From a virus, in IMG/VR virus record IMGVR_UViG_3300028581_004272, positions 1 to 49,825 of that record: a DNA stretch of 49,825 nucleotides; one strand, given 5' to 3'. Of this stretch, positions 4,205 through 49,825 are shown in pieces. Numbering within the stretch: position 1 is the first letter of the stretch; each line of letters starts with the position of its first letter. Under the pieces are notes generated by a model. The model did not search any database. It worked only from the letters and a program-made list of their open reading frames with translations, and was not told the origin of the DNA. Position numbers and translations under genes: made by a program.

Positions 4205-4756
4205 ATGAAAAAAGAGACTGCAGCAACAAAAGTGGTAACAGGCAAAGTTAGGTTTAGCTATGCAAATATATGGGAACCTAAGAGTATCAATGGTGGGGAG
4301 CCTAAATATAGTGTTTCTCTTGTCATTCCAAAAAGCGATAAAAAAACATTAGCTGATATTAACGCCGCTATTGAAGCAGCAAAAGAGGAAGGCAAAAGCA
4401 AGTTTGGTGGCAAAATACCTGCGAACTTAAAACTTCCACTTCGTGATGGTGATGTTGATAGGCCTGATGATGACGCTTATGCTAACAGCTATTTTATAAA
4501 TGCGAATAGCAAGGACCGACCAGGCGTTGTTGATAAAGCAGTAAAGACTATACTTGACCAAGATGAGGTTTACAGCGGTTGTTATGGGCGAGCTTCAATT
4601 ACATTCTATGCTTTTAATTCTAATGGGAACAGAGGAATAGCTTGTGGATTGCAAAATTTGCAAAAAATAACAGACGGTGAGCCCCTAAGTGGTCGCAGTA
4701 GAGCAGAGAATGATTTTGATAGCTATGAGAACGTAGAGGATGATGAGCTTTGCTAA
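4205..4756 (+). CDS. DUF2815 phage ssDNA-binding protein
   Basis: A 183-residue DUF2815 protein, a T7 gp2.5-like OB-fold family. Typical features are TGKVRFSYANIWEPKSINGGEPKYSVSLVIPK at the N-terminus, a central YANSYFINANSKDRPGVVD, then YSGCYGRASITFYAFNSNGNRGIACGLQNLQK. The tail is acidic (EDDEL), as expected for ssDNA-binding proteins that contact polymerase or helicase. It directly follows the nuclease gene and overlaps the polymerase start by 7 bases. It should coat single-stranded DNA during phage replication and recombination. Confidence 0.85.
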   Translation: MKKETAATKVVTGKVRFSYANIWEPKSINGGEPKYSVSLVIPKSDKKTLADINAAIEAAKEEGKSKFGGKIPANLKLPLRDGDVDRPDDDAYANSYFINANSKDRPGVVDKAVKTILDQDEVYSGCYGRASITFYAFNSNGNRGIACGLQNLQKITDGEPLSGRSRAENDFDSYENVEDDELC

Positions 4757-7614
4757 TTTCACTGGACATTGAAACATATAGCAGTGTGGATTTAATTAGT
4801 TGCGGTGTATATAAATATGTGCAAGCACACGACTTTGAAATATTGCTTCTAGCTTATGCTTTTGATGACGAAGAAGTACATATTCTTGATCTTGTAGTTG
4901 GTGAGGAAATACCAACAATAGTTTTGCAGGCTTTAAGTGATGATCGTATTACGAAGTCAGCATATAACGCAATGTTTGAGAGAATTTGTATAAGCAAGCA
5001 TTTAGGTATTCACCTATCACCACTATCGTGGGAATGTACAGCTGTTAAGGCGGCAACGTTATCACTTCCAGCTTCTCTTGCAAATGTAGCAAATGTATTA
5101 AAACTTGAACAAGGCAAAATGGGTGAAGGAAAAGATTTAATAAAATATTTCTGCATTCCATGTTCACCAACAAAGGTAAATGGTGGTAGGTGTAAAAACC
5201 TACCTTGCCATGCACCTGATAAGTGGGATTTGTTTAAAGAATATTGTATTCGTGATGTTGAAGTTGAGCGAAATGTTAGAAAAAAGCTATTAGAATTCAA
5301 GTATGATGAACAATCGTTATATTGTCTTGACCAGAAAATCAATGACACAGGGGTTTCGGTAGATATGGAACTTGTGGAAAATGCTATTGCTTTTGATGCG
5401 CTGTCTAAAGATGATATGTTATCTCAAGCCAAGAAACTAACGGGACTTGACAATCCAAATAGTGTTGCCCAATTAAAACAGTGGCTGCTAGATAATGGTC
5501 TTGAGGTAGATAGTTTATCAAAGAAAACAGTTGTGGAATTGGCAAAGGAAAATGACGGTGATATTGAGGAGCTATTGAATTTAAGGCTTCGAATGTCAAA
5601 AACATCAACTAAGAAATATGAAGCCATAAAGCGTAGTGTTTGTGATGATGGTAGAGTGAAAGGATTGTTTCAATTCTGCGGTGCAAATAGGACGGGTAGG
5701 TGGTGTTTGACTGGCGACCACGAGGTGCTGACGAAAAATGGCTGGAAGCGTTTGGATGAATGGAACGGCGGTGAAATAGCATGTTGGACTGCCAAAGGTG
5801 AAATGGTATCATTTCAAAAAGCAGAGCAAGTTCAGTTTGATTATAACGGAGATATGTACATTTATTCAGACAAGCGGATATCTCAAATCAGTACACCTGA
5901 CCACAAAATGTATGTTAAACGTAGATACGGTGCTCCGTGGCAAACGGATGTTGTTGAAAATATGCAGTATTACCGACCGAGTATTCCGTTTACGGGGTTT
6001 CGTACCATCAACTCCAATCTCGAACACAGTCAATTGAGAGTTCTTGTGATGGTTCAAGCTGACGGTCATTATGTTTCGGATGGAGGAATAAGATTAAAAT
6101 TCGTAAAACAAAGAAAAATTGAACGATGCCGCTATCTGCTTAGGAAAGCAGATATTACATATTTGGAAACAGAGCAAAAAGCCGGTAATAAGGTAGCAGC
6201 TATGTTTACTATAACTGCAAGACATGTACCGTTATGGTTAAGGCTATTTAGGGAAAAAACTTTTGGTTCGTGGTTGTTTGACGAAAGTGCGGATGTGTTC
6301 TTTGATGAAATTGTACACTGGGATGGGTATCAAAGTGCTAAAAACAGTATTCAATATTGTACTTGTAATAAACAAAATGCTGATATTGTACAGGCATTTG
6401 CCCACATAAGCGGTAGGAGTGCATTAATAAGGGTGAAATGCAGAAGCGAAGAACACCCCAACTGGAGTGATGCTTATGTCGTTGATATTTGGTTGACGCC
6501 GAAAAACTGTCACGAAATAAGAACTAAACCACTGAAGTACCATTATTCTGGCAAGGTTTATTGTGCAGCTACCTCAACTGGGTACTTTTTAATCCGACGC
6601 AATGGTAGAGTATGGGTAACTGGTAACTCGGGACGCTTGGTTCAGGTGCAAAATTTACCACAAAATCATCTAAAAGACTTAGAACTGGCAAGGCAGATTG
6701 TAAAGAATGGTGATTTTAATCTATTAGAGCAAATGTATGATAGTGTGCCATCGGTGCTGTCTGAACTTATCCGAACTGCGTTTATTCCGCAAGAGGGTAG
6801 TAGGTTTATTGTAGCAGACTTTAGTGCAATTGAAGCTCGTGTTATAGCCTGGTTTGCAGGTGAGCAGTGGAGACTTGATGTTTTTAACTCGCACGGCAAA
6901 ATATATGAGGCCTCAGCATCTGCAATGTTCCACGTACCAATTGGTCAGATAGATAAAACATCACCCCTAAGGCAAAAAGGTAAAATAGCTGAACTCGCTC
7001 TTGGTTATGGCGGCTCTGTTGGGGCTTTAAAAGCTATGGGAGCATTAGAAATGGGTGTGGCTGAAAACGAGCTGAAAGGACTGGTTAATGCTTGGCGAAA
7101 TGCAAATCCTGCGATTGTTAAGTTTTGGTGGGATGTAGGAAACGCTGCAGAACTTGCAGTAACAAAAGGAAAAGCAACAACTATTGGTAGAATAAAAATA
7201 GGTTGTGGGAAAGTCGGTGGAGATAGATATTTGATGTGTATTTTACCTTCGGGACGCCGTTTATGCTATTTTCACCCATCAATGCAGTTAGGAAAGTTTG
7301 ATCGAATGAACGTTACTTATGAAGGTATTGGAACATCTAAAAGATGGGGTCGACTTGACTCATATGGACCAAAGTTTGTGGAAAATATTGTACAGGCAAC
7401 CGCAAGGGATTTACTTGCCGAGGCTATGATAAGGCTAGATATAGCAGGTTACAAAATAGTTATGCATGTGCATGATGAAGCTGTGGCTGAGGCACCAATG
7501 GGTTTTAGAAGTGTCAAGGAAATGTGCGACATAATGGCAATAAATCCAGTTTGGGCAGATGGTTTGCCACTTAAAGCAGATGGGTATGAATGTAAATTCT
7601 ATAAAAAGGAATGA
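4750..7614 (+). CDS. Family A DNA polymerase (phage type) containing an intein
   Basis: A 954-residue precursor. The spliced enzyme would be 646 residues, normal for this phage family. The N-terminal 3'-5' exonuclease has LISLDIETYS (motif I D-x-E) and YCIRDVEVER (motif III). The polymerase part has RTGRW/SGRLVQVQNLPQN, motif A (IVADFSAIEARVIAWFAG), motif B (RQKGKIAELALGYGG) and motif C (MHVHDEAVAEAP). The intein occupies residues 319-626. The only usable initiator in frame is TTG 4750, overlapping the DUF2815 gene and 9 bp after GAGGA. No 5'-nuclease domain is present. It should be the replicative polymerase of the phage. Confidence 0.92.
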   Translation: MLISLDIETYSSVDLISCGVYKYVQAHDFEILLLAYAFDDEEVHILDLVVGEEIPTIVLQALSDDRITKSAYNAMFERICISKHLGIHLSPLSWECTAVKAATLSLPASLANVANVLKLEQGKMGEGKDLIKYFCIPCSPTKVNGGRCKNLPCHAPDKWDLFKEYCIRDVEVERNVRKKLLEFKYDEQSLYCLDQKINDTGVSVDMELVENAIAFDALSKDDMLSQAKKLTGLDNPNSVAQLKQWLLDNGLEVDSLSKKTVVELAKENDGDIEELLNLRLRMSKTSTKKYEAIKRSVCDDGRVKGLFQFCGANRTGRWCLTGDHEVLTKNGWKRLDEWNGGEIACWTAKGEMVSFQKAEQVQFDYNGDMYIYSDKRISQISTPDHKMYVKRRYGAPWQTDVVENMQYYRPSIPFTGFRTINSNLEHSQLRVLVMVQADGHYVSDGGIRLKFVKQRKIERCRYLLRKADITYLETEQKAGNKVAAMFTITARHVPLWLRLFREKTFGSWLFDESADVFFDEIVHWDGYQSAKNSIQYCTCNKQNADIVQAFAHISGRSALIRVKCRSEEHPNWSDAYVVDIWLTPKNCHEIRTKPLKYHYSGKVYCAATSTGYFLIRRNGRVWVTGNSGRLVQVQNLPQNHLKDLELARQIVKNGDFNLLEQMYDSVPSVLSELIRTAFIPQEGSRFIVADFSAIEARVIAWFAGEQWRLDVFNSHGKIYEASASAMFHVPIGQIDKTSPLRQKGKIAELALGYGGSVGALKAMGALEMGVAENELKGLVNAWRNANPAIVKFWWDVGNAAELAVTKGKATTIGRIKIGCGKVGGDRYLMCILPSGRRLCYFHPSMQLGKFDRMNVTYEGIGTSKRWGRLDSYGPKFVENIVQATARDLLAEAMIRLDIAGYKIVMHVHDEAVAEAPMGFRSVKEMCDIMAINPVWADGLPLKADGYECKFYKKE
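5704..6627 (+). other. Intein with LAGLIDADG-like endonuclease region in the polymerase
   Basis: A 308-residue in-frame insertion between Trp and Ser of the conserved RTGRW-SGRLVQVQNLP motif. It begins with Cys1 in CLTGDHEVLT (block A), has TPDHKMYV (block B) and ends with YHYSGKVYCAATSTGYFLIRRNG...VTGN before the +1 Ser (blocks F and G). The residue before the terminal Asn is Gly, not the usual His. The central part has two LAGLIDADG-like helices with acidic residues (VLVMVQADGHY and FFDEIVHWDGY), so a homing endonuclease is likely, perhaps weakened. Splicing is needed to restore the polymerase. Confidence 0.9.
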
Positions 7615-13254: not shown

Positions 13255-13360
13255 AATAGAGTCGAAAAATATATAAAACATATAGCTATTAAAATTTCCC
13301 AAAACACTTTTAATTTTTAAATTAATGTGTTAAAATATAGGTAGAGAGTAGGTGTTGAGT

Positions 13361-13840
13361 ATGCGCATCCCGAAGATATATCTTGAAACAACAATTTTTA
13401 ACTTTGTATTTGCTGATGATGCCCCTGATAAGAAAGAGGCAACCATAAAGCTGTTTGAGGAAATTGCAAAAGGTAAGTATGAGGCATACACTTCGTATTA
13501 TGTTGTGGAGGAACTTGAAAAGGCCTTTGAACCTAAAAGGAGCAATATGTTAGAACTAATAAAGCAATACAACGTTAGCATATTGGAGGTAAGCCCTGAA
13601 GCGGAAAGATTGGCAGATATTTATGGAAAGAATGGCATAATACCTGAAAAATATCATACGGATGGCATTCATATAGCGGTTGCAACTGTAAACAATATGA
13701 ATTATATTATAAGCCTTAATTTTAAACACATTGTGAAGGTTAAAACAATTGAAACAACAAAAGCTATAAATATTCTTGAAGGCTATAGAGAGATAAGCAT
13801 TTATTCCCCAATGGAGGTGATTGATTATGATGAGAACTGA
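13361..13840 (+). CDS. PIN-domain toxin (VapC-like)
   Basis: A 159-residue PIN-domain protein, an Mg-dependent RNase fold used by type II toxins. The N-terminal strand is KIYLETTIFNF (Glu takes the first acidic position, as in a known PIN subgroup), followed by SYYVVEELEKA and DGIHIAVATVNNMNYIISLNFKHI with the conserved Asp. ATG 13361 is chosen over upstream GTG/TTG because of the AGTAGGTG site about 8 bp before it. Its end overlaps the start of the small partner gene. Together they form a cassette inserted behind the regulator gene. Confidence 0.82.
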   Translation: MRIPKIYLETTIFNFVFADDAPDKKEATIKLFEEIAKGKYEAYTSYYVVEELEKAFEPKRSNMLELIKQYNVSILEVSPEAERLADIYGKNGIIPEKYHTDGIHIAVATVNNMNYIISLNFKHIVKVKTIETTKAINILEGYREISIYSPMEVIDYDEN

Positions 13841-14951: not shown

Positions 14952-15494
14952 GTGGCAAACGGACACGGAGGAGCAAGGGCAGGTTCGGGCAATAAAAAGA
15001 AAGCGTTAGCAGATAAACTTTTAGAAGGCAATCTAGGCAGGCGAAAAATAAAGGTGATAGATTTTGGTGAGATAACTGATATACAAGGCGTAACGATGCC
15101 AAAGCCTAAAGATTATCTATCGGCACAACAAAGAGATGGCAAAGAGCTAATTGCAAAGGAAATATATGAGGCTACATGGGAGTGGGTAAATGAAAGGGGT
15201 TGTGCAAATTTAATTAACCCACAAATTATCGAGCAATATTCTGTGGCGGTGGCAAGAGCGGTTCAGTGTGAAGAGGCAATATCAACTTATGGATTTTTAA
15301 GTAAGCACCCAACATCTGGCAATCCAATTCAGTCACCGTATGTACCAATAGCGCAGAGCTATTTAAAACAGGCAAATAGTATTTGGTTTTTAATTTACCA
15401 AGTGGTTAAGGAAAACTGCTCGTCAGATTATAAGGGCGGATCGCCTGCTGATGATGATCCTATGGAACGCTTGCTTAGATCTAGGGGGCTTTGA
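14952..15494 (+). CDS. terS: Terminase small subunit, P27 family
   Basis: A 180-residue P27-family small terminase. The N-terminal glycine/basic stretch (ANGHGGARAGSGNKKK) and the helical core (QQRDGKELIAKEIYEATWEWVNERG, then EQYSVAVARAVQCEEAI) with the terminal SPADDDPMERLLRSRGL are typical. It binds the packaging site and loads TerL. I choose GTG 14952 because GGGGGTGA lies just before it; an ATG at 14937 would add five residues but overlaps that ribosome site. TerL is not adjacent: methyltransferases and small genes intervene. Confidence 0.82.
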   Translation: MANGHGGARAGSGNKKKALADKLLEGNLGRRKIKVIDFGEITDIQGVTMPKPKDYLSAQQRDGKELIAKEIYEATWEWVNERGCANLINPQIIEQYSVAVARAVQCEEAISTYGFLSKHPTSGNPIQSPYVPIAQSYLKQANSIWFLIYQVVKENCSSDYKGGSPADDDPMERLLRSRGL

Positions 15495-15499
15495 TAAAC

Positions 15500-16822
15500 A
15501 TGATAATACAAAAAATAAAGTCAGAAATGTTAAACCCAGCCGAGTACAATCCACGTAAGAATTTAAAGCCTGGTGACAAAGAGTATGAAAAATTAAAAAA
15601 ATCAATTGAGACCTTTGGATACATAGAATTAGTGGTATGGAATAAACGCACTGGTAATGTTGTATCAGGACATCAAAGGTTAAAGATATTGCAGGAATTA
15701 GGTTATTCAGAAATTGAGTGCATAATTATTGATGTCGATAGTGATAACGAAAAGGCTCTCAATATAGCAATGAATAAAATTGGCGGTGAATGGGACGAAG
15801 ACAAGCTCGCTTCACTTATTGCAGACCTTGACAGCAATGCATTTGATGTTTCAGTTACTGGTTTTGATGCCGCCGAGGTTGAAGAGCTTATGGATAAATT
15901 TTATTCCAAAGATGCAGTTCAAGATGAGTTTGATGTTGATAAGGTTAAAGAGAATATTGAAGCCACAGGTGCTATTACTCAAAAGGGAGATATATGGCTC
16001 CTTGGAAATCACAGGCTTATGTGCGGAGATAGTGGATCGGCAGAGGATTTAACAAAGCTAATGAGTGGCAAGCATGCACAATGTGCTATAACATCTCCAC
16101 CTGATGAGGTTGGTAAGAATTATGAAAAAGATGGCATTGAGCCTTGGCTTGAAACAATGAGGGTCGTTATAAAAAATATAACAAAGCACGCTGATGTTAT
16201 CTGCTGGCAGATGGTGGATTTGTTATGTACCGGCACACAGTTTATTGAGCCGACTGGTTTTTATAGTATTCAGATGTTTGCGGATAATGGATTTAGACCT
16301 ATTTGGATAAGGATTTGGAAAAAACAAAGCATGAGTTCAGGTGTTGCACCATACCACTTGGCAACAAATAAACCTGCTCCGCAATATGAATATATTACAG
16401 CTTTTGCAGGAAAAGAAATAGAAGAATATAACGACCAAGAGTATGTTTGGCTATCAGCTTTTGCTGGGCACAGCTATAAATTTGCAAAACGTCTCACAAA
16501 AGATGAACGAAAAAAATGGGGCTATGCAGGCATATGGGAAATGACAGCTGTAAGGACAAAGAAACAGCACCCAGCCATGTTTCCAGTTGAGCTTCCTTGG
16601 CGTTGTATTAAAATGCACAGTGATAGAGATGGCATTGTACTAGAGCCATTTAGTGGAAGTGGTACTACAATTATAGCAGCAGAACAAACCGATAGATGCT
16701 GTTATGCAATGGAAGTATCCCCTGTTTATTGTGATTTAGCAATTAAGCGTTGGGAAGAATTTACAGGCGAAAAGGCTGTAAGAATGGAGGGAAAAAATGA
16801 ACATACAAAAAATATTGATTAG
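15500..16822 (+). CDS. ParB-domain-fused DNA methyltransferase (amino-methylase, SPPD variant)
   Basis: A 440-residue fusion. Residues about 1-105 are a ParB/Srx-like domain (NPAEYNPRKNL...GNVVSGHQRLKIL). The rest is a beta-class N4-cytosine or N6-adenine methyltransferase, with the catalytic motif at AITSPPDEVGKNY and the AdoMet-binding motif EPFSGSGTTIIAAE near the end. The usual aromatic after SPP is replaced by Asp, which may reflect subfamily or altered activity. Probably an orphan anti-restriction methylase. ATG 15500 is preferred. The end overlaps the next, related gene by 26 bases. Confidence 0.82.
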   Translation: MIIQKIKSEMLNPAEYNPRKNLKPGDKEYEKLKKSIETFGYIELVVWNKRTGNVVSGHQRLKILQELGYSEIECIIIDVDSDNEKALNIAMNKIGGEWDEDKLASLIADLDSNAFDVSVTGFDAAEVEELMDKFYSKDAVQDEFDVDKVKENIEATGAITQKGDIWLLGNHRLMCGDSGSAEDLTKLMSGKHAQCAITSPPDEVGKNYEKDGIEPWLETMRVVIKNITKHADVICWQMVDLLCTGTQFIEPTGFYSIQMFADNGFRPIWIRIWKKQSMSSGVAPYHLATNKPAPQYEYITAFAGKEIEEYNDQEYVWLSAFAGHSYKFAKRLTKDERKKWGYAGIWEMTAVRTKKQHPAMFPVELPWRCIKMHSDRDGIVLEPFSGSGTTIIAAEQTDRCCYAMEVSPVYCDLAIKRWEEFTGEKAVRMEGKNEHTKNID

Positions 16823-18038
16823 TAAACTTAACCCTGCAAAATATAATCCTCGTAAAGATTTAAAGCCGGGAGATGCAGAATACGAGAAGTTGAAAAGGTC
16901 TATTTTGGAGTTTGGATTTGTAGAACCTGTAATTTGGAATAAGGCTACAGGCAATATAGTAGGCGGTCATCAGAGATATAAGGTGCTAAAAGGACTTGGC
17001 TATAACGATATAGAATGTGTGGTGCTTGATATTGATGAGCAAAAGGAAAAAGCATTAAATATAGCTCTTAATAAAGTAAGCGGTGATTGGGATAAGCCTC
17101 TTCTAACTGATTTACTTAAAGAACTAGACACTGTAGGTTTTGATGTATCACTAACGGGTTTTGATATTGCAGAATTGAACGAACTTTTTGGTGAGCCTTA
17201 CACAAAAGAAGATGATTTTGATGCAGAAGCAGTAGCATCAGAAATAAAAACACCAATTACACAGCCAGGTGATGTTTGGCGTTTGGGTAAGCACCGCTTA
17301 ATTTGTGGTGACAGCACTAAAACTGATGATGTTGCTAAACTTATGAATGGGATTGAAGCTGATTTAGTTTTAACCGATCCCCCATATAATGTTGACTACC
17401 AAGGAGGAACGGTTGAAAAACTAAAAATTCAAAATGACAAAATGTCTGATGAACAATTTTTGCAGTTCTTGATAGATGCATTTGCGAGAATGTATGAGTT
17501 TTCTAAAAAGGGTGCGGCAATCTATGTCTTTCATGCAGACAGCGAGGGGTATAATTTTAGGACAGCTTTTAAACTTGCAGGGTATCAGCTTAGACAGTGT
17601 TTGATATGGGCTAAAAATGCTTTTGTTCCGGGCAGGCAAGATTACCAGTGGCAACACGAACCAATACTTTATGGCTGGAAAGATGGAGCCAGTCATTCAT
17701 GGTACGGTGGACGCAACCAAGCAACAGTTGTTAAGTTTGATAAACCAAGTCGCAATGGTGAACACCCAACGATGAAACCGCTTGCACTTTGTGGACAGTT
17801 AATTATGAACTCAAGCAAAGAGGGGGATATTGTTCTCGATACATTTGGTGGTAGCGGTTCTACACTTATTGCCAGCGACCAGACAGGCAGAACATGTTAC
17901 ATGGCTGAGCTTGACCCAAAATACTGTGATGTTATAGTAAAAAGGTATATAGCTCAGGTTGAAACGGATAAGGAAGTGTTTCTTATTAGGGGCGAAAACA
18001 AAACAAAGTATATTGATATACCAAAGGAAGGTGCTTAA
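16797..18038 (+). CDS. ParB-domain-fused DNA methyltransferase (DPPY, adenine type)
   Basis: A 413-residue paralogue of the preceding gene. The ParB-like N-terminus is plainly related (LNPAKYNPRKDLKPGDAEYEKLKRS, GGHQRYKVL). The catalytic half has the N6-adenine-type motif LVLTDPPYNVDYQGG and a C-terminal DTFGGSGSTLIASDQTGR AdoMet site. Canonical motifs suggest an active enzyme. No restriction nuclease accompanies it, so protection of phage DNA is the likely role. The two genes look like an old tandem duplication, with the methylase halves diverging far more than the ParB halves. Confidence 0.88.
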   Translation: MNIQKILISKLNPAKYNPRKDLKPGDAEYEKLKRSILEFGFVEPVIWNKATGNIVGGHQRYKVLKGLGYNDIECVVLDIDEQKEKALNIALNKVSGDWDKPLLTDLLKELDTVGFDVSLTGFDIAELNELFGEPYTKEDDFDAEAVASEIKTPITQPGDVWRLGKHRLICGDSTKTDDVAKLMNGIEADLVLTDPPYNVDYQGGTVEKLKIQNDKMSDEQFLQFLIDAFARMYEFSKKGAAIYVFHADSEGYNFRTAFKLAGYQLRQCLIWAKNAFVPGRQDYQWQHEPILYGWKDGASHSWYGGRNQATVVKFDKPSRNGEHPTMKPLALCGQLIMNSSKEGDIVLDTFGGSGSTLIASDQTGRTCYMAELDPKYCDVIVKRYIAQVETDKEVFLIRGENKTKYIDIPKEGA

Positions 18039-18040
18039 TT

Positions 18041-19351
18041 ATGACCTTCCTTGATTTTTTTGCTGGTATAGGTGGTATGAGAAGTGGTTTAGAGCTTGCA
18101 GGTCATAAATGCATTGGATTTTGCGAAAAAGATAAATATGCTATTTTAGCATATAACGCTATGTATAATACAGATGGAGAGTGGTTTGAAAATGACATCA
18201 CAAAAATTAACACCGATAAAATCCCCAAAGCAGACATATGGACAGGAGGTTTTCCATGCCAAGGGGTTTCAGCCGCGGGGCTTGGCAGAGGGCTTAGAGA
18301 CGAGCGAAGTGGATTATATTTTGAATTTATTAAACTCATCAAAAGTGTCAAAGAAGAAAATAAACCCCGATGGGTTATCATTGAAAACGTTAAGAATTTA
18401 TTGTCAATTAATGTCGGAATTGACTACCTTGATGTTCTGTGTGAGTTGGACGAAGCAGGGTACGATGCGTCTTGGCAAGTTATCAACACCAAAGATTATC
18501 TACCCCAAAACAGAGAACGGATATTCATTGTCGCTGAAAGACGTGTTGCTGGAAGAAGTCCCATCGAAATATTACCTATCACAAGAAAAGGCACAAATGC
18601 TAATATCAAGGTTATAGGGGATATTGCAGAGCCGTCTTGGATAGAGCATATGCGCAGGGTGTATTCAGAGGACGGTATTTCACCATGCCTTAGCACTTGC
18701 TCTGGTGGCAATTTACAACCTAAAATACTAATTGACGGTTGTCAGGGTAACAAGGTTTATGATACAGATGGTATTGCTACCTGTATCACAAGTCAAGGTG
18801 GTGGTTTAGGAAGGCATACTAATTTATATTGCATAGACCAATCTACAGTTAAATCAAAAATAACAGATACAGCAAGGTGTATTACAGCAAGGCTAACCGC
18901 AGGGATAGTAAACAGAACTGCACAAAACAGCGGTGTTATTGAGGTAATGCCTGTTTTAACTCCTGATAGAGTGAATAAACGTCAAAATGGTAGACGTATA
19001 AATGATGATAAAAATGCACCAAGTTACTGTATCACAGCTTCAGACCAACACGGCATTGCAATTATAAATGACCGTGGTACATATGGCGAAGAGCTAAAAA
19101 CTAATGAAATTTGCCCTGCAATTCTTGCAACAGATTTCAAGGGCCCAAAAAAAGTTATTGATATGAATAATTGTAGAATAAGAAGGCTTGTACCACAAGA
19201 ATGCTATCGCCTCCAGGGATTTTCAGACGAACAATTTTTCGAAGCACAATCCGTGCTATCTGATGCCCAATTATATAAGACCGCGGGCAATGCTATAAGC
19301 GTTCCAGTAGCATATGGGATAGGCAAAAAGCTTGCTGAAATAGATAGCTGA
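18041..19351 (+). CDS. C5-cytosine DNA methyltransferase (Dcm-like)
   Basis: A 436-residue C5 methyltransferase. Motif I is FFAGIGG (residues 6-12), motif IV GGFPCQGVSAAG with catalytic Cys73, motif VI WVIIENVKN, motif VIII QNRERIF and motifs IX-X RRLVPQECYRLQGFSDEQF...GNAISVPV. The region between VIII and IX holds about five C-I/L-T-containing segments (SPCLSTCSGG, ATCITSQGGG, ARCITARLTAG, PSYCITASDQ, CPAILATDFKG), a repeat-rich target-recognition region common in phage enzymes. It lies 2 bases after the previous methylase and completes a three-enzyme anti-restriction block. Confidence 0.92.
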   Translation: MTFLDFFAGIGGMRSGLELAGHKCIGFCEKDKYAILAYNAMYNTDGEWFENDITKINTDKIPKADIWTGGFPCQGVSAAGLGRGLRDERSGLYFEFIKLIKSVKEENKPRWVIIENVKNLLSINVGIDYLDVLCELDEAGYDASWQVINTKDYLPQNRERIFIVAERRVAGRSPIEILPITRKGTNANIKVIGDIAEPSWIEHMRRVYSEDGISPCLSTCSGGNLQPKILIDGCQGNKVYDTDGIATCITSQGGGLGRHTNLYCIDQSTVKSKITDTARCITARLTAGIVNRTAQNSGVIEVMPVLTPDRVNKRQNGRRINDDKNAPSYCITASDQHGIAIINDRGTYGEELKTNEICPAILATDFKGPKKVIDMNNCRIRRLVPQECYRLQGFSDEQFFEAQSVLSDAQLYKTAGNAISVPVAYGIGKKLAEIDS

Positions 19352-23535: not shown

Positions 23536-23811
23536 ATGCCAGTTATAAGACCACTTACGGATTTGAGAAACAAATTTACTGAACTATCTAATATTGTCCA
23601 TGCTAAACAAGAACCAATATTTCTAACAAAAAACGGCACAGGAGATATGGTTGTAATGAGCATTGAGTATTATGATAAGCAAATGGCATTAAATGAAATA
23701 CGCACCAAATTGGCTGAAGCTGAGGCGGAGATAGCAAACGGAGTCGAATTAATACCTCATAAGGAAGCAATGCAGAATTTAAGGGAGCGTATTAATGGAA
23801 AGTCAGTATAA
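23536..23811 (+). CDS. YefM/Phd-family antitoxin
   Basis: A 91-residue Phd/YefM-type antitoxin. The N-terminal fold (VIRPLTDLRNKFTELSNIVHAKQEPIFLTKNGTGDMVVMSIEYYD) matches the family closely; the C-terminal helical tail should wrap the toxin. It binds the palindrome in its own promoter (inferred). It overlaps the toxin gene by 17 bases. The module interrupts the usual TerL-portal neighbourhood, marking it as cargo gained by the phage. Confidence 0.9.
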   Translation: MPVIRPLTDLRNKFTELSNIVHAKQEPIFLTKNGTGDMVVMSIEYYDKQMALNEIRTKLAEAEAEIANGVELIPHKEAMQNLRERINGKSV

Positions 23812-24100
23812 AATAAAATATACGCCAATATCACTTAATGATTTAAAAGAAATAATTGATTATATAATGCTTGATTCACCGACTGCTGCTAATAAAATGC
23901 TAGATAAAATAGAAGAAGCTATTTCTAAACTTGCATTGTTTCCTAATATGTGTCCATATTTTGAAGATTCTGCATCAGAGAAAAAATACAGATGTTTAGC
24001 AATAGGGAATTACAATGTTTTCTATGTAGTATTAGGTGATACAGTGCAAATAATGCGTATCCTTCATGGCAAAAGACAAATTGAAGCTTTATTGCAATAA
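23795..24100 (+). CDS. RelE/ParE-family toxin
   Basis: A 101-residue RelE/ParE superfamily toxin (YKIKYTPISLNDLKEIIDYIM at the N-terminus, FPNMCPYFEDSASEKKYRCLAIGNYNVFYVV, then VQIMRILHGKRQIEALL). The YRCLAIGNYNVFYVV and RILHGKRQ segments are the family core. Whether it cleaves mRNA (RelE) or poisons gyrase (ParE) cannot be read from sequence. It is translated from an ATG inside the antitoxin gene and followed by a terminator. Confidence 0.9.
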   Translation: MESQYKIKYTPISLNDLKEIIDYIMLDSPTAANKMLDKIEEAISKLALFPNMCPYFEDSASEKKYRCLAIGNYNVFYVVLGDTVQIMRILHGKRQIEALLQ

Positions 24101-38892: not shown

Positions 38893-38931
38893 AATGTATG
38901 GTAACATGTGTGATACGAGGAGGTGTTTGCA

Positions 38932-40260
38932 TTGGAGAGAGTTGTTAAAAAGGTTTATTTTCCTGCACTTTCTGTGCCTAAGCTGATAAGGGTTGCTGCC
39001 TATGCAAGAGTATCGAGTGGTAAAGTTGATATGCTTCATTCGCTTTCTGCCCAAGTCAGCTTTTACAGTGACTATATTCAAAAACATAAAGGTTGGATAT
39101 ATGTCGGTGTTTATGCAGATGAGGCACTTACAGGAACAAAAGATAACCGTAAGGAGTTTTGCAGATTGCTGGGGGATTGCCGTAACGGTAAGATTGATTT
39201 GGTTGTAACAAAGTCAATATCCCGTTTTGCAAGGAACACAGTTACACTGCTTGAAACCGTAAGGGAATTAAAAGCCTTGGGAATTGATGTATTTTTTGAA
39301 GAGCAAAACATACATACCTTAAGTAATGACGGTGAATTAATGCTTTCGATTTTAGCATCCTATGCTCAGGAAGAAAGCCTATCGGTAAGCGAAAATTGCA
39401 AGTGGCGTATTCGTAAAAATTTCAAGGAAGGAATTCCTACCTTCTTCAGAATTTATGGCTACAGATTTGTTAATTCTAAATTAGAATTAGTGCCAGAAGA
39501 AGCTGAAATTGTAAGGATGATATTTGCAGATTACCTTTTGGGAATGGGCAAAAATGCAATAGTGAGAAAACTTAATTCCTTATGTATAAAGGCTTACAAT
39601 GGTGGAAGGTGGAGTGATTCAACAATTGCAGATATGCTTAGAAATGAAAAATATACTGGCAACCTGCTACTTCAGAAATCCTATGTTAAAGATCATTTAA
39701 CAAAAACGCAGGTTGATAACAATGGTGAACTGCCTATGTATTCAGTCTCCGACACCCATGAACCAATAATTGATACGAAAACTTTTGAAATGGTTCGAAA
39801 AGAGTTGAAAGCTCGTGCTGATAAATATTGCAACAACAAAGCTAACGGCAATTCATATCCATTTACAGGAAAGCTTAGGTGTGGTATTTGTAATTCAATT
39901 TTTTGCAGGCGAGCAAGTAGTGCTGGTACAAAGTATAAACGGTATATTTGGATGTGTCCCACTTTCAATAAACAGGGCAAAGCGTACTGCCAGTCTAAAC
40001 AAATACCTGAAACCATTCTTTTTGATATTTCTGCCGAAGTTTTAGGGATAGACCAATTTGATGAGAATATCTTTGAAAGAATGGTTGATTATATTGATGT
40101 TCCACTGAATAATATCCTCATTTTCCACCTCAAAGGTGGCACTGAAATTACACGCACTTGGGAAAATAATTCAAGGCGAGAGAGTTGGAATGGGGCATCC
40201 AGGCAAAAGGCCCGAGAAAAAGCACTAAACAAGGGAGGTTTTTATAGTGAGCGTAGCTAG
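38932..40260 (+). CDS. Large serine recombinase 1
   Basis: A 442-residue large serine recombinase. The catalytic domain (residues about 20-165) has AAYARVSSGKVDM with the nucleophile Ser, VVTKSISRFARN and LASYAQEESLSVSEN. It is followed by the recombinase domain (IYGYRFVNSKLELVPEEAEIVRMIFADYL) and a zinc ribbon (LRCGICNSIF... MCPTFN...C). The coiled coil usual in phage integrases is very short. TTG 38932 follows GAGGAGGTG. Probably acts with recombinase 2. Confidence 0.9.
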   Translation: MERVVKKVYFPALSVPKLIRVAAYARVSSGKVDMLHSLSAQVSFYSDYIQKHKGWIYVGVYADEALTGTKDNRKEFCRLLGDCRNGKIDLVVTKSISRFARNTVTLLETVRELKALGIDVFFEEQNIHTLSNDGELMLSILASYAQEESLSVSENCKWRIRKNFKEGIPTFFRIYGYRFVNSKLELVPEEAEIVRMIFADYLLGMGKNAIVRKLNSLCIKAYNGGRWSDSTIADMLRNEKYTGNLLLQKSYVKDHLTKTQVDNNGELPMYSVSDTHEPIIDTKTFEMVRKELKARADKYCNNKANGNSYPFTGKLRCGICNSIFCRRASSAGTKYKRYIWMCPTFNKQGKAYCQSKQIPETILFDISAEVLGIDQFDENIFERMVDYIDVPLNNILIFHLKGGTEITRTWENNSRRESWNGASRQKAREKALNKGGFYSERS

Positions 40261-41827
40261 AGTTGTCACAGTTATACCAGCATCTATAAATAAATTTACG
40301 CATATGCAGAATATATCGCTTGCCAAAAAGAGAGTGGCAGCCTACGCCAGGGTTTCGACCGATAGCGAAGAACAGCTTACAAGCTATGAGGCACAGGTTG
40401 ATTACTATACTCGCTATATAAAGGAAAAGCCTGAATGGGAGTTTATTGATGTATACACTGACGAGGGCATTTCAGCAACCAATACAAAAAAGCGTGACGG
40501 TTTTAAGCGGATGATTGCCGATGCCTTGAATGGCAAGATAGACCTTATCGTTACAAAATCGGTCAGCAGATTTGCAAGGAATACGGTAGATTCTTTGGTC
40601 ACTGTTAGGCAGTTAAAGGAAAAAGGTGTTGAGATTTATTTCGAGAAAGAAAATATTTATACGCTCGACAGCAAAGGTGAACTGCTTATTACAATTATGT
40701 CATCACTTGCTCAGGAAGAAAGCCGTTCAATCAGTGAAAATGTAACCTGGGGTCAACGAAAACGCTTTGCAGACGGTAAGGTTTCAATGCCTTATAAGCG
40801 GTTCCTTGGTTTTAAAAAGGGTGAAAACGGGCTGCCAGAGATTGTTGAAGAAGAAGCAAAATTTATACGGCTTATTTACAAGCTTTTTATTGAAGGCAAA
40901 ACCTCATCAGCAATTGCAACCCACTTAACAGCAGTGGAAATACCTACCCCTACTGGTAAGTTAAACTGGCATAAAAGCACGGTTGATAGTATTTTAACCA
41001 ATGAAAAATACAGAGGCTCAGCAATTTTGCAAAAAACCTACACAGTTGATTTTCTTACAAAGAAGAAAAAAGTGAATGAGGGTGAAATTCCTCAATATTA
41101 TGTTGAGCGGAGCCATGACTTCATCATTGAACCAATAGAATTTGAGTTGGTTCAGGCAGAGATTGCAAGGCGAAAACAGTTAGGGATGCAATATAGCTGT
41201 AATAACATTTTTTCTACTAAGCTGGTATGCGGAGAGTGTGGTGGGTATTATGGTTCAAAGGTGTGGCACAGTACAAGCAAATACAAACGCACTATTTGGC
41301 AATGCAACATGAAATTCAAAAACGATGAAAAATGCTCCACTCCCCATATTACGGAGGAAGAAATCAAGAATAAATTTCTGCTTGCATTTAATGAGATTTT
41401 TGAAAGCAGAGATGAAATTATCGAAAACTGTAGACTGGTTCAGAAGGCATTAACCGATTGCTCGGCACTTGATGCCGAACTTGCTAAAAGGCAGCAGGAG
41501 CTTGAGGTTGTTGCAGAGCTTACTAGAAAGTATATTGATGAAAATGCCCACTCACCTATTAGCCAGGAAGAATATATGGGGAAATATAAAGGGTTTGCTG
41601 AAAGGTATGAAAAAGTAAAGGCTTGTATTGCTGATATTGAGTTGAGACGTGAGGAACGCATATCTAAGAGAAAGCTTATTGATGTGTTTATAAGGGATTT
41701 GGCAAAGCAAAAAACAATTCTGACGGAGTTTGATGAGGGGGTGTGGGTTTCATTGGTTGAAAAAGTAAGGATACTTGATGATAAAATTGTGTTTGCATTT
41801 AAGAATGGAATGGAAATTGAAAAGTAG
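40247..41827 (+). CDS. Large serine recombinase 2
   Basis: A 526-residue large serine recombinase with all parts: AAYARVSTDSEEQLTSYEAQ catalytic motif, VTKSVSRFARNTVDSL, a recombinase domain (FLGFKKGENGLPEIVEEEAKFIRLIY), a zinc ribbon (LVCGECGGYYG...WQCNMKFKNDEKC) and a long C-terminal coiled coil (LDAELAKRQQELEVVAEL...ADIELRREERISKRK). It overlaps gene 1 by 14 bases and begins with GTG behind GGGAGG. As the complete enzyme of the pair, it is the more likely integrase. Confidence 0.92.
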   Translation: MSVARVVTVIPASINKFTHMQNISLAKKRVAAYARVSTDSEEQLTSYEAQVDYYTRYIKEKPEWEFIDVYTDEGISATNTKKRDGFKRMIADALNGKIDLIVTKSVSRFARNTVDSLVTVRQLKEKGVEIYFEKENIYTLDSKGELLITIMSSLAQEESRSISENVTWGQRKRFADGKVSMPYKRFLGFKKGENGLPEIVEEEAKFIRLIYKLFIEGKTSSAIATHLTAVEIPTPTGKLNWHKSTVDSILTNEKYRGSAILQKTYTVDFLTKKKKVNEGEIPQYYVERSHDFIIEPIEFELVQAEIARRKQLGMQYSCNNIFSTKLVCGECGGYYGSKVWHSTSKYKRTIWQCNMKFKNDEKCSTPHITEEEIKNKFLLAFNEIFESRDEIIENCRLVQKALTDCSALDAELAKRQQELEVVAELTRKYIDENAHSPISQEEYMGKYKGFAERYEKVKACIADIELRREERISKRKLIDVFIRDLAKQKTILTEFDEGVWVSLVEKVRILDDKIVFAFKNGMEIEK

Positions 41828-41843
41828 CGATATTAATATTATT

Positions 41844-41891
41844 CACCCACCTTGGACTAAAGTTTTTAGTCCAAGGTGGGTGTTTTTTTTT
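41844..41891 (+). terminator. Strong terminator at the end of the recombinase operon
   Basis: An 18-bp perfect stem (CACCCACCTTGGACTAAA at 41844-41861 with its complement at 41865-41882) followed by nine T residues. It marks the end of the phage-like gene set. Confidence 0.95.
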
Positions 41892-42126: not shown

Positions 42127-43355
42127 ATGAGTAATTCAATTACAAATGAACAAACAACTATTTTCATTTCCTATTCTTCAACAGATATTGAAATTGTTGA
42201 AATTGTTGAAGATACCTTATCATCCTATTTTAAAGATCGAGTAAAATTCTAAAGATATGACCGAGATGTTAAATATAAGGAAAGTTTTAAAGAATTCATG
42301 AAAACTTTAAAGAATCATGATTTTGTTTTGGCCATTATAAGCGACAGCTATTTGAAGTCCTCTAACTGTATGTTTGAAGTTGGAGAAATTCTAAGAGATG
42401 ACTCATATCTTAACAACCTCCTTTTCATAGTTTTACATGACAGTGACATAAAACACTATAAAAACCATATCAATTCTATAGTAGGCGCTTCGATATATAG
42501 CCCAACTGGGAAGTACTTATATATTGAATATTGGCAACAACAAAAAGAACATATTAATTCACTTATAACTAATATTCAAGGTAACTCAACCAATACGGCA
42601 GGTTTGAGGGATGAACTTAAACTTGTTGAGAAAATTCTTCAAAACGATATCGGCGTTTTTTACATTATTTAAGTGATGCAAGAGGTATTTCATTTTCAGA
42701 ACTTTTAAAAAATAATTTTTCTGACATAATTCAACAAATAGATACTTCTGATACAACGGAACTGTTTACCATTGACGATTATACAATATCTGATGAAGAA
42801 AAAGCACAAAAATATTATAATTTAGCCCGAAAATGCAAAAATCGCTATGAAAAAATCATATATTTGACAAACGCAATATCTTTAGTACCAAATAACCCCG
42901 TTTACTTTAATTCACGAGGTATTCAATTTAGTAAAATCGACAACTTTAGTTCGGCAATTGAAGATAAAACAAAAGCTATTGAATTAGATCCAGAAAACGC
43001 TCGGTATTATTCGAGCAGAGGTTCAACCTATCGTTTATCAGGTGCTGATAAATATGCAGATGCTTTGAATGACCATTCAAAAGCGGTTAGTTTGCAACCA
43101 GATTATCCACCATATCAATATCGTTTGAGTGTAACTTATTACTCGCTTGAAGAATACGAAAATGCAATTGAACCAATGATGAAAGCAATTTCACTTAACC
43201 AAACTAATATGGGATATTATCACAATCTTTCCGTCCTATACTATAAATTAGGGTGGCTAAATAAAGCGAATGAAGTGCGTCTTGTTCTTAATGAAAAAAC
43301 GCCCAGTATGATAGATTATTATGATGAGATTTACCCTGACTGGATTTCACTATAA
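42127..43355 (+). pseudogene. TIR-domain plus TPR protein, broken by a stop and a frameshift
   Basis: Read through, this is a TIR protein of about 409 residues. The TIR part starts TTIFISYSSTDIEIVEIVEDTL and continues SFKEFMKTLKNHDFVLAIISDSYLKSSNCMFEVGEIL, with the conserved SSxC-x-E helix. After a linker, tetratricopeptide repeats follow (AIELDPENARYYSSRGSTYRLSG, AVSLQPDYPPYQYRLSVTYYSLEEYENAIE). A TAA at 42250-42252 interrupts strand B. A second break occurs at T6 (about 42656-42661), where one more T would join TIR to the TPR frame. TIR-TPR proteins are candidate NAD-depleting defence genes; this copy is inactive unless read through. Confidence 0.85.
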
Positions 43356-44095
43356 ACATCACCTGTTATTTCTGAGAAATATTTGATTATATTTCTGTAA
43401 AAATATTCCTTATCCGTCGGCAAATCATTTTTTATGGCACCGTCAATGATTGGCGAAAGGGAAACAAGCTTATTGTACATTTTTTTATCGATACATTTTG
43501 CGTTGAATAAGTTTTTCGCAGTATACCTACTTGCATCAAAATTACGATATGCGATTTTGTTTTCAGCATATTTTTTGAGGAATTTATTGTACAAGTATTT
43601 TATTCTTTTTTGTGCATTGTTTCCGATATATACACTTTTTGGCACGGAAGAATCAAGTAGTGGCTCGATTTTTTCTGAAAGAGGCGGCTGTGTGATGCTA
43701 AAAACATATGCCAGAACCTTTTTTGGCGGTGTTGAAAAACGTTGCTTGGAAATCCGTCTCCAGCAATCGTATGTCCTTGCCCCGTCAATTAGCAAAAACG
43801 TATTATTGCTTTTTTCCACAGTGATTGGAAACGCACGATAGCAATCTTCACGACAATTTTTTATGCTTTCATAACGCTCAATATAGCGGGTGTTTTCGTT
43901 GTTTAATTCTATATTACTGTAAAAGTCGGCATCAATATCCTCAAAGCTTATTTCTATCGGCGTTACGCTGTCAGAAAGGTTGTGCATATCATCGCTTGCA
44001 AATCTATATTCTAACCAATCAGGGAAGGTTTGTGATTTGACAATGCTTTCAATAAAGTTAAAATAATCCTCGCATTTGTATTTAGAGCAAAACAT
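43331..44095 (-). CDS. C-terminal ORF of large helical protein; ParB/Srx-like domain possible
   Basis: A 254-residue ORF if started at ATG 44095, but the ribosome site is weak and the frame stays open and protein-like upstream to 44182 (CAYLIAQLSYEKIINFSQETQEMFC). I judge it to be the distal part of the gene to its right, separated by a one-base shift at A7 (44183-44189). Residues about 90-135 (AFPITVEKSNNTFLLIDGARTYDCWRRISKQ...KVLAYVF) resemble a ParB/sulfiredoxin-like fold, with IDGARTY in place of the usual DGxHR. The final 100 residues are lysine-rich and helical. It overlaps the TIR-TPR relic tail to tail by 25 bp. Confidence 0.6.
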   Translation of the reverse strand: MFCSKYKCEDYFNFIESIVKSQTFPDWLEYRFASDDMHNLSDSVTPIEISFEDIDADFYSNIELNNENTRYIERYESIKNCREDCYRAFPITVEKSNNTFLLIDGARTYDCWRRISKQRFSTPPKKVLAYVFSITQPPLSEKIEPLLDSSVPKSVYIGNNAQKRIKYLYNKFLKKYAENKIAYRNFDASRYTAKNLFNAKCIDKKMYNKLVSLSPIIDGAIKNDLPTDKEYFYRNIIKYFSEITGDVYSEIQSG

Positions 44096-47000
44096 TTCTT
44101 GTGTTTCTTGGCTGAAGTTTATAATCTTTTCGTAAGATAATTGTGCAATTAAATAAGCACATTGCCTTATGCATGGATTTGCAAAAAAAGGTTTTTAATT
44201 CAAAATCCGTTCTTAACGGAAAGGTGTTGCCATGATTCATTTCATCCAATGACGAAAAAACCTCGGATAACACAAAGCAGCATAGACGTGCACTTTGTAT
44301 AGGATTATGTCTGTTCACGCTAATCAAGTGGTAATAGAGATTGCGAACCTTATATCCATATGTATTTTCCAAAATTGATTTATTGGGCTTTTTTGTATTC
44401 AGATTGCCAAGCGTGAATGCCGCATAGTCCTTTACGCATGGGTGCGAATCCAAAAACGCATCACTCGCCCTTGAAATTATGGCCATCCGAATGCTATCCT
44501 CCAAATCGGACCAAACCTCGGGGGATGACAAATAATCTTCAACCGTTCTATACTCTGACACAAACTCCGGCAATTTCTTTGCGTAATGAATCAGTTGATT
44601 TCTAAGGCTTAAGGAGAGAGTTATGAACCTTTCGTGAAACAACAGATGCGAAACCAATTTTTCCATATATATTTGAAGACTTTGCAGATTAATGTGTTCA
44701 TATAAATGCTTGCATAATTTTTTAATTCCATTTTCATATTTCATGCTGGCGTCGCTATTTGCAATCAGTTCACAATATACATTGTCAAGCCCTATTTTCT
44801 TGTTGAACAAATAACAGAGTACAAAAAACATATTTTCGGGGTCAAGATTCTCAATAGAAACAGCCTGCTGTATCGAAAAATATAATAGCTCATTTAGATA
44901 CGCTGCGAATTCCTCCCTGCTGCTTATCTGTTCTATATGTTCTATTAATGATTTATAATGTTCGCTTTTTAATTTTTCTTTAACCGATGGGTTCACTGAT
45001 AATTGCTTAATTTTTTCGACAAAGTCTTTCCAAATATCAAAAAACGCCTTATCGGTTTGTTTGATGATTGCATAATCAAACCACATTGTAATTAAATCGC
45101 TGATTTCATAGTAATTCTCTTGGGTTGCTAAAAATTGAATGCACAGCTTTCTTGCAGCATTGTTATGAACAACGCCATTTTTGTACGCCACTAGCTTTTT
45201 CTTCAAGTTGCTTCTGAAATAATTATTACTGAATAAGGCTTTGTCTTTTTCAACCTTATCCTGCAAAAGACGAAAGCGGAAGGTTTTGGGTGCAAAAAGG
45301 GTATCAATTTCTTTTTTCTCAATCGATATGGTAGGTAGAACGGTTTCTTCCCCTAAATATCGCAAAAAGTCGTCTGGGAAATTCTTGTTTTTGTCAAGCC
45401 TTCGATCCTTCAGTAATTTTTTGATTTTTTCAGGTGTTTCAACAACTTTCAATAGGTCGATTGTTTTTTTTGCTTGATTCCTGTTAATTTCCTTTTCACA
45501 TATAATAATCTTTTTCAAAAATCTTATTAAGTTGATATTATAATTACTGTCATATGAATCAAAAATATACTTATAGTATTCTTGTTTGTCAAAAAAACAC
45601 AGGGTCGTTATTAGCTTGTCGGCTTTGTGCTTTTCAATACATTTTGAAATAAGAAATCTTATATTTCCTGCATTTTTAGCTGGGAACTTTGATAGATAGG
45701 TTGACCAAACGAAGCCGTCCATGCAACAGCCGGCAATTAGTTTTTGCAATGCAGTGCTTGGTTTTTCATGTGTTTTATTTAAATACTCGACTGTTTTTTG
45801 CCAAAACCCGGAGATGTAGCTATCCGATTCGTCCTCAAACATAAGACTTGCTACTTGGCATATTATTTTCAAGCGATCTTCCTCATATTCAAAGTGGAGA
45901 ATTAATTCATCTGTGCCCAGCCGGAATTCAACAAGTATCATAAAATAACTTTGATGATAATTTCGTTTAAGAAGCATAGTTTGAATGCCGTCTATAACCA
46001 TTGCCTTGTTTTCTGGGTTGGTTTTTGGAAACTCGTCAAAGGATATTGCATACAAGTATTTGGACAAGGTGGAGTTGAGTTCAAACTTGTAAATATCGTT
46101 GCAATTGTGGAATTCGTCCTTGCAATTATGAAATATGTCAAGCAAAACAGTCCACACCTTTTTCTGCGTGGCTGTTTTTTTATCCAATATAACATCGTTA
46201 TCGGAAAAATCAAACATATCGCTCATTTTTCGATATTCCATCTCTTGTTTCAACAAAGCGAAGGTTTCCAATGGATTATTAAAAATGAAATGAAAGGTTT
46301 GGTGTCTATTAAAACCGTCAATATTAATCTCAATCTGTTTTAAAAACAAATTCTTAATAGATTTGTTGCTGCATTCGCTGATATTTTGCATAATAGCTTT
46401 TGTATCTGCCATCAAATAGGCTTTGATGTCGTTGGAGGCATCAAAATAGTCACAGGCAGCAATAAACGCATAGCGTGAAAAAGTACAGTTGACAAACTCA
46501 ACATTTCCGCCCAATTTAAGCTCCTTTTTTGATGGAGCTTGTTGCTGCGTAACGTAGAACATCAAATGAAGTGTATTTAACAGATAGTCTGGAAGCAAAT
46601 TAAATTCAGTAGCAGATATTTTCGACTTGCTTTCTATTTCATAGCTATCACTACTGTTTTCGCCATTTTCCTGCTGCATTTCTGAAGAGATATCAGCTTT
46701 GGTGGCATTATTATCCGTGTTTTGTGCGGCGGGGGAATCCCAATCAAGCGGAAACTCATTGATAATTGCAAAATAAACTAAATTAGCAATAAACTTTTTC
46801 AATCCGAGTTGAGACAAATCGTCATCTTCTGTAAGACGATTGCAATGATGAAGCAATAAACAATTTTGTTCTTTGTCAAAAGAGTTTTTGGTATTTAAAA
46901 ATGTGTTGCATAATTCTTTGGCGTTATTTTTCAGGGATATTCCCATTATAAAGTTTTCAAGATATTGTGGATAATCACTCTTGAATTTAGATATTACAGC

Positions 47001-47186
47001 ATTCCCAACTACTCTTGTTCCATTTATAAATCCGCTGTCTTCGTTATTTTCCATTCTATAAAATGCCCAAGTTTCTCCGGCATCCTCTCTCAATTTAAAA
47101 AAATCAAAAGCACATTTAAATAATTGACGCTTTAGTCCTGTTGTTGTTTCAATAACAAATTTAATTATTTCTTGGTTAACTCTCAC
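44082..47186 (-). CDS. Large helical protein of unknown family, 1,034 aa
   Basis: A 1,034-residue, almost wholly alpha-helical cytoplasmic protein with no signal peptide, membrane segment, Walker motif or cysteine cluster. An acidic, low-complexity linker lies at about residues 150-185 (SSEMQQENGENSSDSYE). The rest has the look of a long helical-repeat or sensor scaffold, as in large defence proteins, but I recognise no family. It starts at GTG behind AGGAGG from a good leftward promoter. Its last 30 residues (after residue 1001) look non-coding, while the +1 frame continues naturally into the 43331 ORF. Confidence 0.7.
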   Translation of the reverse strand: MRVNQEIIKFVIETTTGLKRQLFKCAFDFFKLREDAGETWAFYRMENNEDSGFINGTRVVGNAVISKFKSDYPQYLENFIMGISLKNNAKELCNTFLNTKNSFDKEQNCLLLHHCNRLTEDDDLSQLGLKKFIANLVYFAIINEFPLDWDSPAAQNTDNNATKADISSEMQQENGENSSDSYEIESKSKISATEFNLLPDYLLNTLHLMFYVTQQQAPSKKELKLGGNVEFVNCTFSRYAFIAACDYFDASNDIKAYLMADTKAIMQNISECSNKSIKNLFLKQIEINIDGFNRHQTFHFIFNNPLETFALLKQEMEYRKMSDMFDFSDNDVILDKKTATQKKVWTVLLDIFHNCKDEFHNCNDIYKFELNSTLSKYLYAISFDEFPKTNPENKAMVIDGIQTMLLKRNYHQSYFMILVEFRLGTDELILHFEYEEDRLKIICQVASLMFEDESDSYISGFWQKTVEYLNKTHEKPSTALQKLIAGCCMDGFVWSTYLSKFPAKNAGNIRFLISKCIEKHKADKLITTLCFFDKQEYYKYIFDSYDSNYNINLIRFLKKIIICEKEINRNQAKKTIDLLKVVETPEKIKKLLKDRRLDKNKNFPDDFLRYLGEETVLPTISIEKKEIDTLFAPKTFRFRLLQDKVEKDKALFSNNYFRSNLKKKLVAYKNGVVHNNAARKLCIQFLATQENYYEISDLITMWFDYAIIKQTDKAFFDIWKDFVEKIKQLSVNPSVKEKLKSEHYKSLIEHIEQISSREEFAAYLNELLYFSIQQAVSIENLDPENMFFVLCYLFNKKIGLDNVYCELIANSDASMKYENGIKKLCKHLYEHINLQSLQIYMEKLVSHLLFHERFITLSLSLRNQLIHYAKKLPEFVSEYRTVEDYLSSPEVWSDLEDSIRMAIISRASDAFLDSHPCVKDYAAFTLGNLNTKKPNKSILENTYGYKVRNLYYHLISVNRHNPIQSARLCCFVLSEVFSSLDEMNHGNTFPLRTDFELKTFFCKSMHKAMCLFNCTIILRKDYKLQPRNTRNVLL

Positions 47187-47221
47187 TTTTATAATGCCTC
47201 CTACGTGAAAAATTATTGCTT

Positions 47222-47263
47222 CCTAAAACAAACCTAAAACAAACCTAAAACAAACCTAAAAAG
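47222..47263. repeat. Tandem 11-bp repeat in the leader of the large gene
   Basis: CCTAAAACAAA is repeated three times perfectly (47222-47254), followed by CCTAAAAAG. It lies in the untranslated leader of the leftward large gene, between its promoter (47330-47358) and ribosome site. Changes in copy number could affect expression. Confidence 0.9.
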
Positions 47264-47268
47264 AACCG

Positions 47269-49116: not shown

Positions 49117-49281
49117 ATGAATAAATTCAAAGTACTTAGTAATACAGAAGCACGTAATATAAACGGTGGCGCTATTATTGAGGCATTTGCATTAACTGGT
49201 GCCGCTGTTTGGACTGCACAATATGCATGGGAAATCGGTCAAAAGTTAGGTAAATTTATCGTTAAGAATAGAAGAAAATAA
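49117..49281 (+). CDS. Double-glycine class II bacteriocin precursor
   Basis: A 54-residue precursor. The 18-residue leader (MNKFKVLSNTEARNINGG) matches the LSxxELxxIxGG rule except Ala for the second Leu. Cleavage after Gly18 would release a 36-residue cationic, amphipathic core (AIIEAFALTGAAVWTAQYAW, then EIGQKLGKFIVKNRRK) with no cysteines. A very strong GGAAGGAGG site precedes the ATG. The peptidase-C39 exporter gene begins 275 bp downstream, as expected. Possibly one peptide of a two-peptide bacteriocin, or a quorum peptide; no clear partner with GG leader is seen. Confidence 0.88.
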   Translation: MNKFKVLSNTEARNINGGAIIEAFALTGAAVWTAQYAWEIGQKLGKFIVKNRRK

Positions 49282-49555
49282 TAAAACCAAGTGCAGTATT
49301 AAATTATCGTCAACAAACGAGGACTTAACAAGCCAATCATCAGGTTCATAACATTTAATGTCGTAAGGTTCTCAACAAATTAGAAGGATGTATCAATACT
49401 GAATTTCAATCAATACTTAAAATGATCTGTCTTAACTCTTTCTCTGTGAAAATAATGTAAAATCAATGTTTAATATTAAAAGTTTATAAGAATTATATGT
49501 AAAATTTAGCATGCCAGCATTTTATAAAATAACTCAAGCAAAGAGAGGTGGAATT
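49282..49555. other. Gap between bacteriocin and exporter genes
   Basis: AT-rich 274 bp with stops in all forward frames. I see no gene with a ribosome site, no strong terminator and no consensus promoter. An immunity gene would be expected nearby but is not here. Confidence 0.5.
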
Positions 49556-49825
49556 ATGAAATATCCATGTGTAAAGCAAAAAGATTTGACTGATTGTGGC
49601 GTAGCTTGTTTAGCAACTATAAGTCGTTTCTATGGTTCGCATATCCCTCTTAATAAAATTAGAGAATATGCAAAGACTGATAAACTCGGGAATAGCGCAG
49701 ATAGCTTGACAATTGCTTCTAAAAAGCTCAATATGGATGCCGTTGTTAAAAAAACTGAAGATAAGACTGCTATAATTGAATATAAACACCTACCAGTTAT
49801 TGCACATTTAATAACAAAAACCATG
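49556..49825 (+). CDS. Peptidase-C39 ABC exporter, N-terminal fragment
   Basis: The first 90 residues of a bacteriocin-processing ABC transporter, cut by the window end. The C39 cysteine protease domain shows the catalytic start VKQKDLTDCGVACLATISRFYG, with Gln8 and Cys14, and the region leading to LPVIAHLI where the catalytic His is the H in IAH. It should remove double-glycine leaders and export the mature peptide. GAGAGGTGG precedes the ATG. The membrane and ATPase domains lie outside. Confidence 0.93.
   Translation, partial: MKYPCVKQKDLTDCGVACLATISRFYGSHIPLNKIREYAKTDKLGNSADSLTIASKKLNMDAVVKKTEDKTAIIEYKHLPVIAHLITKTM

Follow-up and report, generated by a model that had tools for sequence, protein, structure and literature searches.

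Near the right end of IMG/VR virus record IMGVR_UViG_3300028581_004272, a stretch of 49,825 bases that was analysed whole and is called the window here, two overlapping minus-strand open reading frames (ORFs) lie beside the relic of a TIR-TPR gene, which raises the question of whether they are one interrupted gene or two, and of what their product might do. The first-pass annotation had proposed a single large helical protein interrupted at a T7 run. Both ORFs are present on the minus strand exactly where it had placed them (47186-44082 and 44095-43331), and five features bear on how they are read.

47197..47202, minus strand: perfect Shine-Dalgarno sequence AGGAGG, 10 nt ahead of the GTG at which the long ORF begins
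44082..47186, minus strand: long ORF of 1,034 codons that opens with GTG; it is coding as far as codon ~1000, and its last ~33 codons are probably not coding
44183..44189, minus strand: T7 run (A7 on the plus strand), a candidate frame-change site
44082..44194, minus strand: stretch left open by both frames, which must contain the frame change if this is one gene
43331..44095, minus strand: downstream ORF of 254 codons from its ATG, its frame open upstream to 44194

An open frame of 1,034 codons is far beyond chance, as 200 shuffles of the gene gave a longest open frame of 158 codons. The two ORFs overlap by 14 nt (stop/start), and the downstream ATG at 44095 is without a clear Shine-Dalgarno sequence. 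The proposed joined reading of 1,284 residues does exist, since no stop interrupts the downstream frame from a point just above the T7 run onward; its junction reads KTFF followed by ANPCIRQ. Upstream of the start of the long ORF, at 47222-47265, an 11-base unit (CCTAAAACAAA) recurs in tandem as four short copies.

Codon scoring, in which windows were compared against off-frame DNA of the same gene, bore out the earlier suggestion that the last 30 residues of the long ORF are non-coding: the frame-0 tail (33 codons) scored -4.2 bits and resembles off-frame DNA, just 0.09% of in-frame 30-codon windows being that low. The head of the +1 frame scored -1.4 bits, and +1 windows were positive from about codon 1010 on. 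A change-point model run against a composition null preferred one shifted gene over two overlapping genes by 2.9 nats at best and 1.4 nats marginally. Its posterior for the position of the shift was flat across codons ~999-1029 and did not single out the T7 run, to which the shift had been assigned; a TAA at 44195-44197 bounds the +1 frame, which leaves all of 44082-44194 as possible sites of the shift. On the codon scores, a single interrupted gene of 1,284 codons is favoured, though not proven, with two genes only slightly disfavoured.

Two separate, translationally coupled genes, encoding a 1,034-residue helical protein and a 254-residue protein, for example as a two-component accessory system, form a serious rival that we consider somewhat unlikely. 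The stop/start overlap has a geometry typical of coupling, the frame model's penalty of 1.4-2.9 nats is small, and the authors of GeneTack expect gene overlaps to account for ~33% of orphan frame-transition genes and errors or indels for the remaining ~2/3 (PMC3711429), an expectation close to the odds that we assign to one versus two genes. Coupling is countered by the non-coding score of the frame-0 tail, by a second ATG that lacks a clear ribosome-binding signal and by the +1 frame, which is open already 33 codons upstream of that ATG.

Five further features matter in the surroundings of the ORF pair.

38923..41827, plus strand: two overlapping, differing large serine recombinases (38923-40260 and 40247-41827), the presumed right end of a prophage
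41844..41882, plus strand: terminator 3' of the second recombinase, a perfect 18-bp hairpin followed by T-rich DNA
42130..43355, plus strand: TIR-TPR pseudogene convergent with the ORF pair, TIR in the 5' part and TPR in the 3' part, in different frames
42250..42252, plus strand: in-frame TAA stop in the TIR domain, where the homologue is open
42656..42661, plus strand: T6 run close to the point where the TIR frame gives way to the TPR frame

From position 1 to ~41.9 kb the window reads as a Clostridia temperate phage, encoding an HTH repressor, a family A DNA polymerase, a portal, a ClpP-like protease, an HK97-type capsid, a holin and an amidase. Its recombinases and capsids are closest (~60-67% identity) to those of Acutalibacteraceae, Oscillospiraceae, Monoglobales and Syntrophomonadaceae phages, and the host of the ORF pair is a gut-type member of the Clostridia, probably of the order Oscillospirales. 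To the right of the hairpin follow the TIR-TPR relic, the ORF pair, small genes including one for a bacteriocin-like peptide, and the start of a Peptidase_C39 gene. All of the DNA to the right of ~41.9 kb is probably host chromosome, which fits with the recombinases and terminator stopping there and with bacteriocin and Peptidase_C39 genes lying at 49.1-49.8 kb; the left end of the prophage and its attachment sites fall outside the window, so that the chromosomal position is an inference. The ORF pair is absent from the records of two phage relatives (L086 and L087) whose capsids are 90-91% identical.

The description of the neighbour as a tail-to-tail TIR-TPR relic held up. It is convergent with the ORF pair, its 3' end, with the stop at 43355, runs 25 bp into the 254-codon ORF, which ends at 43331, and it carries both a nonsense codon and a frameshift. 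A TIR protein from an intact chromosome in another genome (L199), 39% identical to the TIR of the relic, is open through both lesion sites, and by comparison with this homologue the neighbour is a pseudogene; a scan with a TIR pattern found nothing. The two lesions indicate that this flank is decaying, which makes a recent inactivation of the ORF pair plausible too.

The gene could instead be intact in the organism, with the frame change a homopolymer base-calling or assembly error. The T7 run offers a candidate site, an error would belong to the larger class of orphan frame transitions expected by the GeneTack authors (errors or indels, PMC3711429), and there is a single lesion across 1,284 codons; but the nonsense codon in the TIR gene is no homopolymer error and thus points to real decay at the locus, and the phage genes that were inspected (e.g. 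terminase large subunit and portal) are lesion-free despite 22 runs of at least 7 in the phage part. We rate an error as rather unlikely.

The T7 run is indeed present, within the stretch open in both frames, and this location could be taken to favour programmed transcriptional slippage or phase variation, toggling between a 1,034- and a 1,284-residue product, as had been suggested. At 7 nt, however, the run falls short of the usual threshold for the slippage or phase-variable class: a large share of bacterial genomes shows selection against slippery A/T runs once these reach 9 nt (PMC1088944). The gene contains six runs of 7 or more, the other five being 7-8 long, so that a run within the 113-nt overlap is unremarkable. 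The neighbouring gene, moreover, is plainly decaying, and a run-length-tolerant DNA pattern scan recovered no second allele in IMG/VR. Slippage or phase variation at T7 is unlikely, and we hold the programmed switch to be the least probable of the readings considered here.

No homologue, and thus no continuous one spanning the junction, was recovered in any collection, within the limits set on the searches. As the annotation had supposed, no known family was recognized: neither ORF had a match in Pfam, NCBIfam, PADLOC 2.0 (0 families) or PHROGs, nor among PDB sequences, and tblastn of the ORFs against phages and plasmids found nothing. Pattern scans with different segments of the ORFs through GTDB genome contigs and IMG/VR viral contigs gave no relative. 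Genome searches, which as a control recovered the query in its own record, gave no true match among 394 genomes from the order of a Ruminococcaceae metagenome-assembled genome (MAG) and 398 from its phylum, 392 from the order of a Lachnospiraceae MAG and 295 from the order of a Bacteroidota-labelled MAG; these draws overlap in part and cover over 1,000 Clostridia and Bacteroidota-labelled genomes in all. Searching 147 genomes with the C-terminal 283 residues likewise gave no match. Weak genome matches (L082, L084 and L085) contain stops within the matched frame and were taken as chance; that of L082 is antisense to an unrelated gene, and that of L084 mainly overlaps the ORF of an unrelated repeat protein. 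The ORF pair is an ORFan within the collections searched.

A single-sequence AlphaFold model (no alignment) of the long ORF is all helix, which suggests that this part could be entirely helical; its confidence is low (pLDDT 38). The model of the C-terminal part has mixed secondary structure (pLDDT 41), and with such values we take the models to be insufficient for fold assignment of either part. Self-BLAST revealed no internal repeats in the ORFan. A HEPN reading, raised by the RNxxxH motifs RNQLIH at 862 and RNLYYH at 948, was rejected, as RX4-6H occurs at about chance frequency here (hand estimate).

The C-terminal part does contain the IDGARTY stretch that had been called ParB/sulfiredoxin-like.

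43682..43957, minus strand: stretch colinear with ParB_N, IDGARTY at 43769-43789; not statistically significant

Residues 76-167 of the C-terminal part are colinear with ParB_N (PF02195), with a strand, a helix and 'PITVEKSNNTFLLIDGARTYDCW' opposite 'PlvVrr..yeivaGerRlrA'. The order of strands and helices in the AlphaFold model of this part would be compatible with the fold, but at a pLDDT of only 41. The hhalign score of 10.4, however, was beaten by 2/60 shuffles, and against ParB_N a segment of the helical ORF also scored higher than the ParB-like stretch (12.8). The isolated stretch had no Pfam match up to E 10, hmmsearch --max against a home-made profile gave 2.9 bits, and a window-wide ParB_N search matched two phage methylases only. 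A ParB-like identity is thus a suggestive lead, not a finding.

Support for a defence setting is indirect, the sole indications being the adjacent TIR-TPR relic and the island of its TIR relative. In L199 (8650-11716), PDC-M14A, a PDC-M14B-TIR fusion and the Drt4 reverse transcriptase lie side by side with Fic-like genes nearby; since the TIR relative sits between PDC-M14A and Drt4, the TIR type of the relic occurs in a defence island elsewhere. The L199 protein resembles the relic in its TIR and not the ORFan, and has a PDC-M14B N-terminal domain where the relic has TPRs. No homologue of the ORFan was found near the L199 locus. With Avs/NLR-like STAND proteins, which are large helical-repeat defence sensors, the ORFan shares size and helical content only; no NTPase, NACHT or nuclease domain was detected in it (Pfam, NCBIfam and PADLOC). 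The ORFan itself has no tie to defence: neither ORF was assigned to a system among the PADLOC 2.0 defence models, and no partner came to light. That it is a new defence effector is possible, as a guess that draws on a single damaged neighbour.

Our preferred, still tentative, reading is an accessory chromosomal gene beyond the right end of the prophage, encoding a protein of ~1,284 residues, interrupted by a frame change and acting as a defence-type sensor or scaffold. The intact protein would comprise ~1,000 residues of helical, solenoid-like sequence and then a smaller mixed alpha/beta C-terminal domain. The frame change, whether a genuine indel or an error in base calling, would lie ~280 codons before the end of the gene and would leave a product that lacks the C-terminal domain and is no longer than 1,034 residues. 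When intact, we infer, the protein would be a large cytoplasmic sensor or scaffold in a locus of defence-island type, in which the helical part may recognize a partner or trigger, on which the C-terminal domain may then act. A bolder version makes the joined protein, carried beside a TIR-TPR defence gene at a hot spot of prophage insertion, the founder of a rare family: very large defence sensors whose C-terminal effector domain is divergent and ParB/Srx-like. It seems to us very doubtful.

Proteins longer than 1,000 residues for which no relative can be detected are uncommon, and accessory genes that neighbour prophages and TIR genes have been fertile ground for finding new defence systems. 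As it stands, the present case adds another lineage-restricted gene (ORFan), probably carrying an indel; its significance would be greater if homologues with conserved defence neighbours exist.

Several other parts of the window deserve mention. The phage family A DNA polymerase (4750-7614) has an apparent intein-like insert (CLTGDHEVLTKNGWKRL ... WVTGNSGRL), and its Pfam match is in two pieces. At 15491-19351, directly ahead of the phage structural module, two ParB_N-methylase genes stand in tandem and a C5 cytosine methyltransferase gene comes after them; a PIN-domain gene (13352-13840) and a ParE-like toxin gene (23795-24100) also lie within the phage. At the far right, 49117-49825 encodes a bacteriocin-like peptide with a double-glycine leader (Bacteriocin_IIc, E 0.002, under the cut-off) and then the start of a Peptidase_C39 exporter, which is likely a bacteriocin locus of the host.
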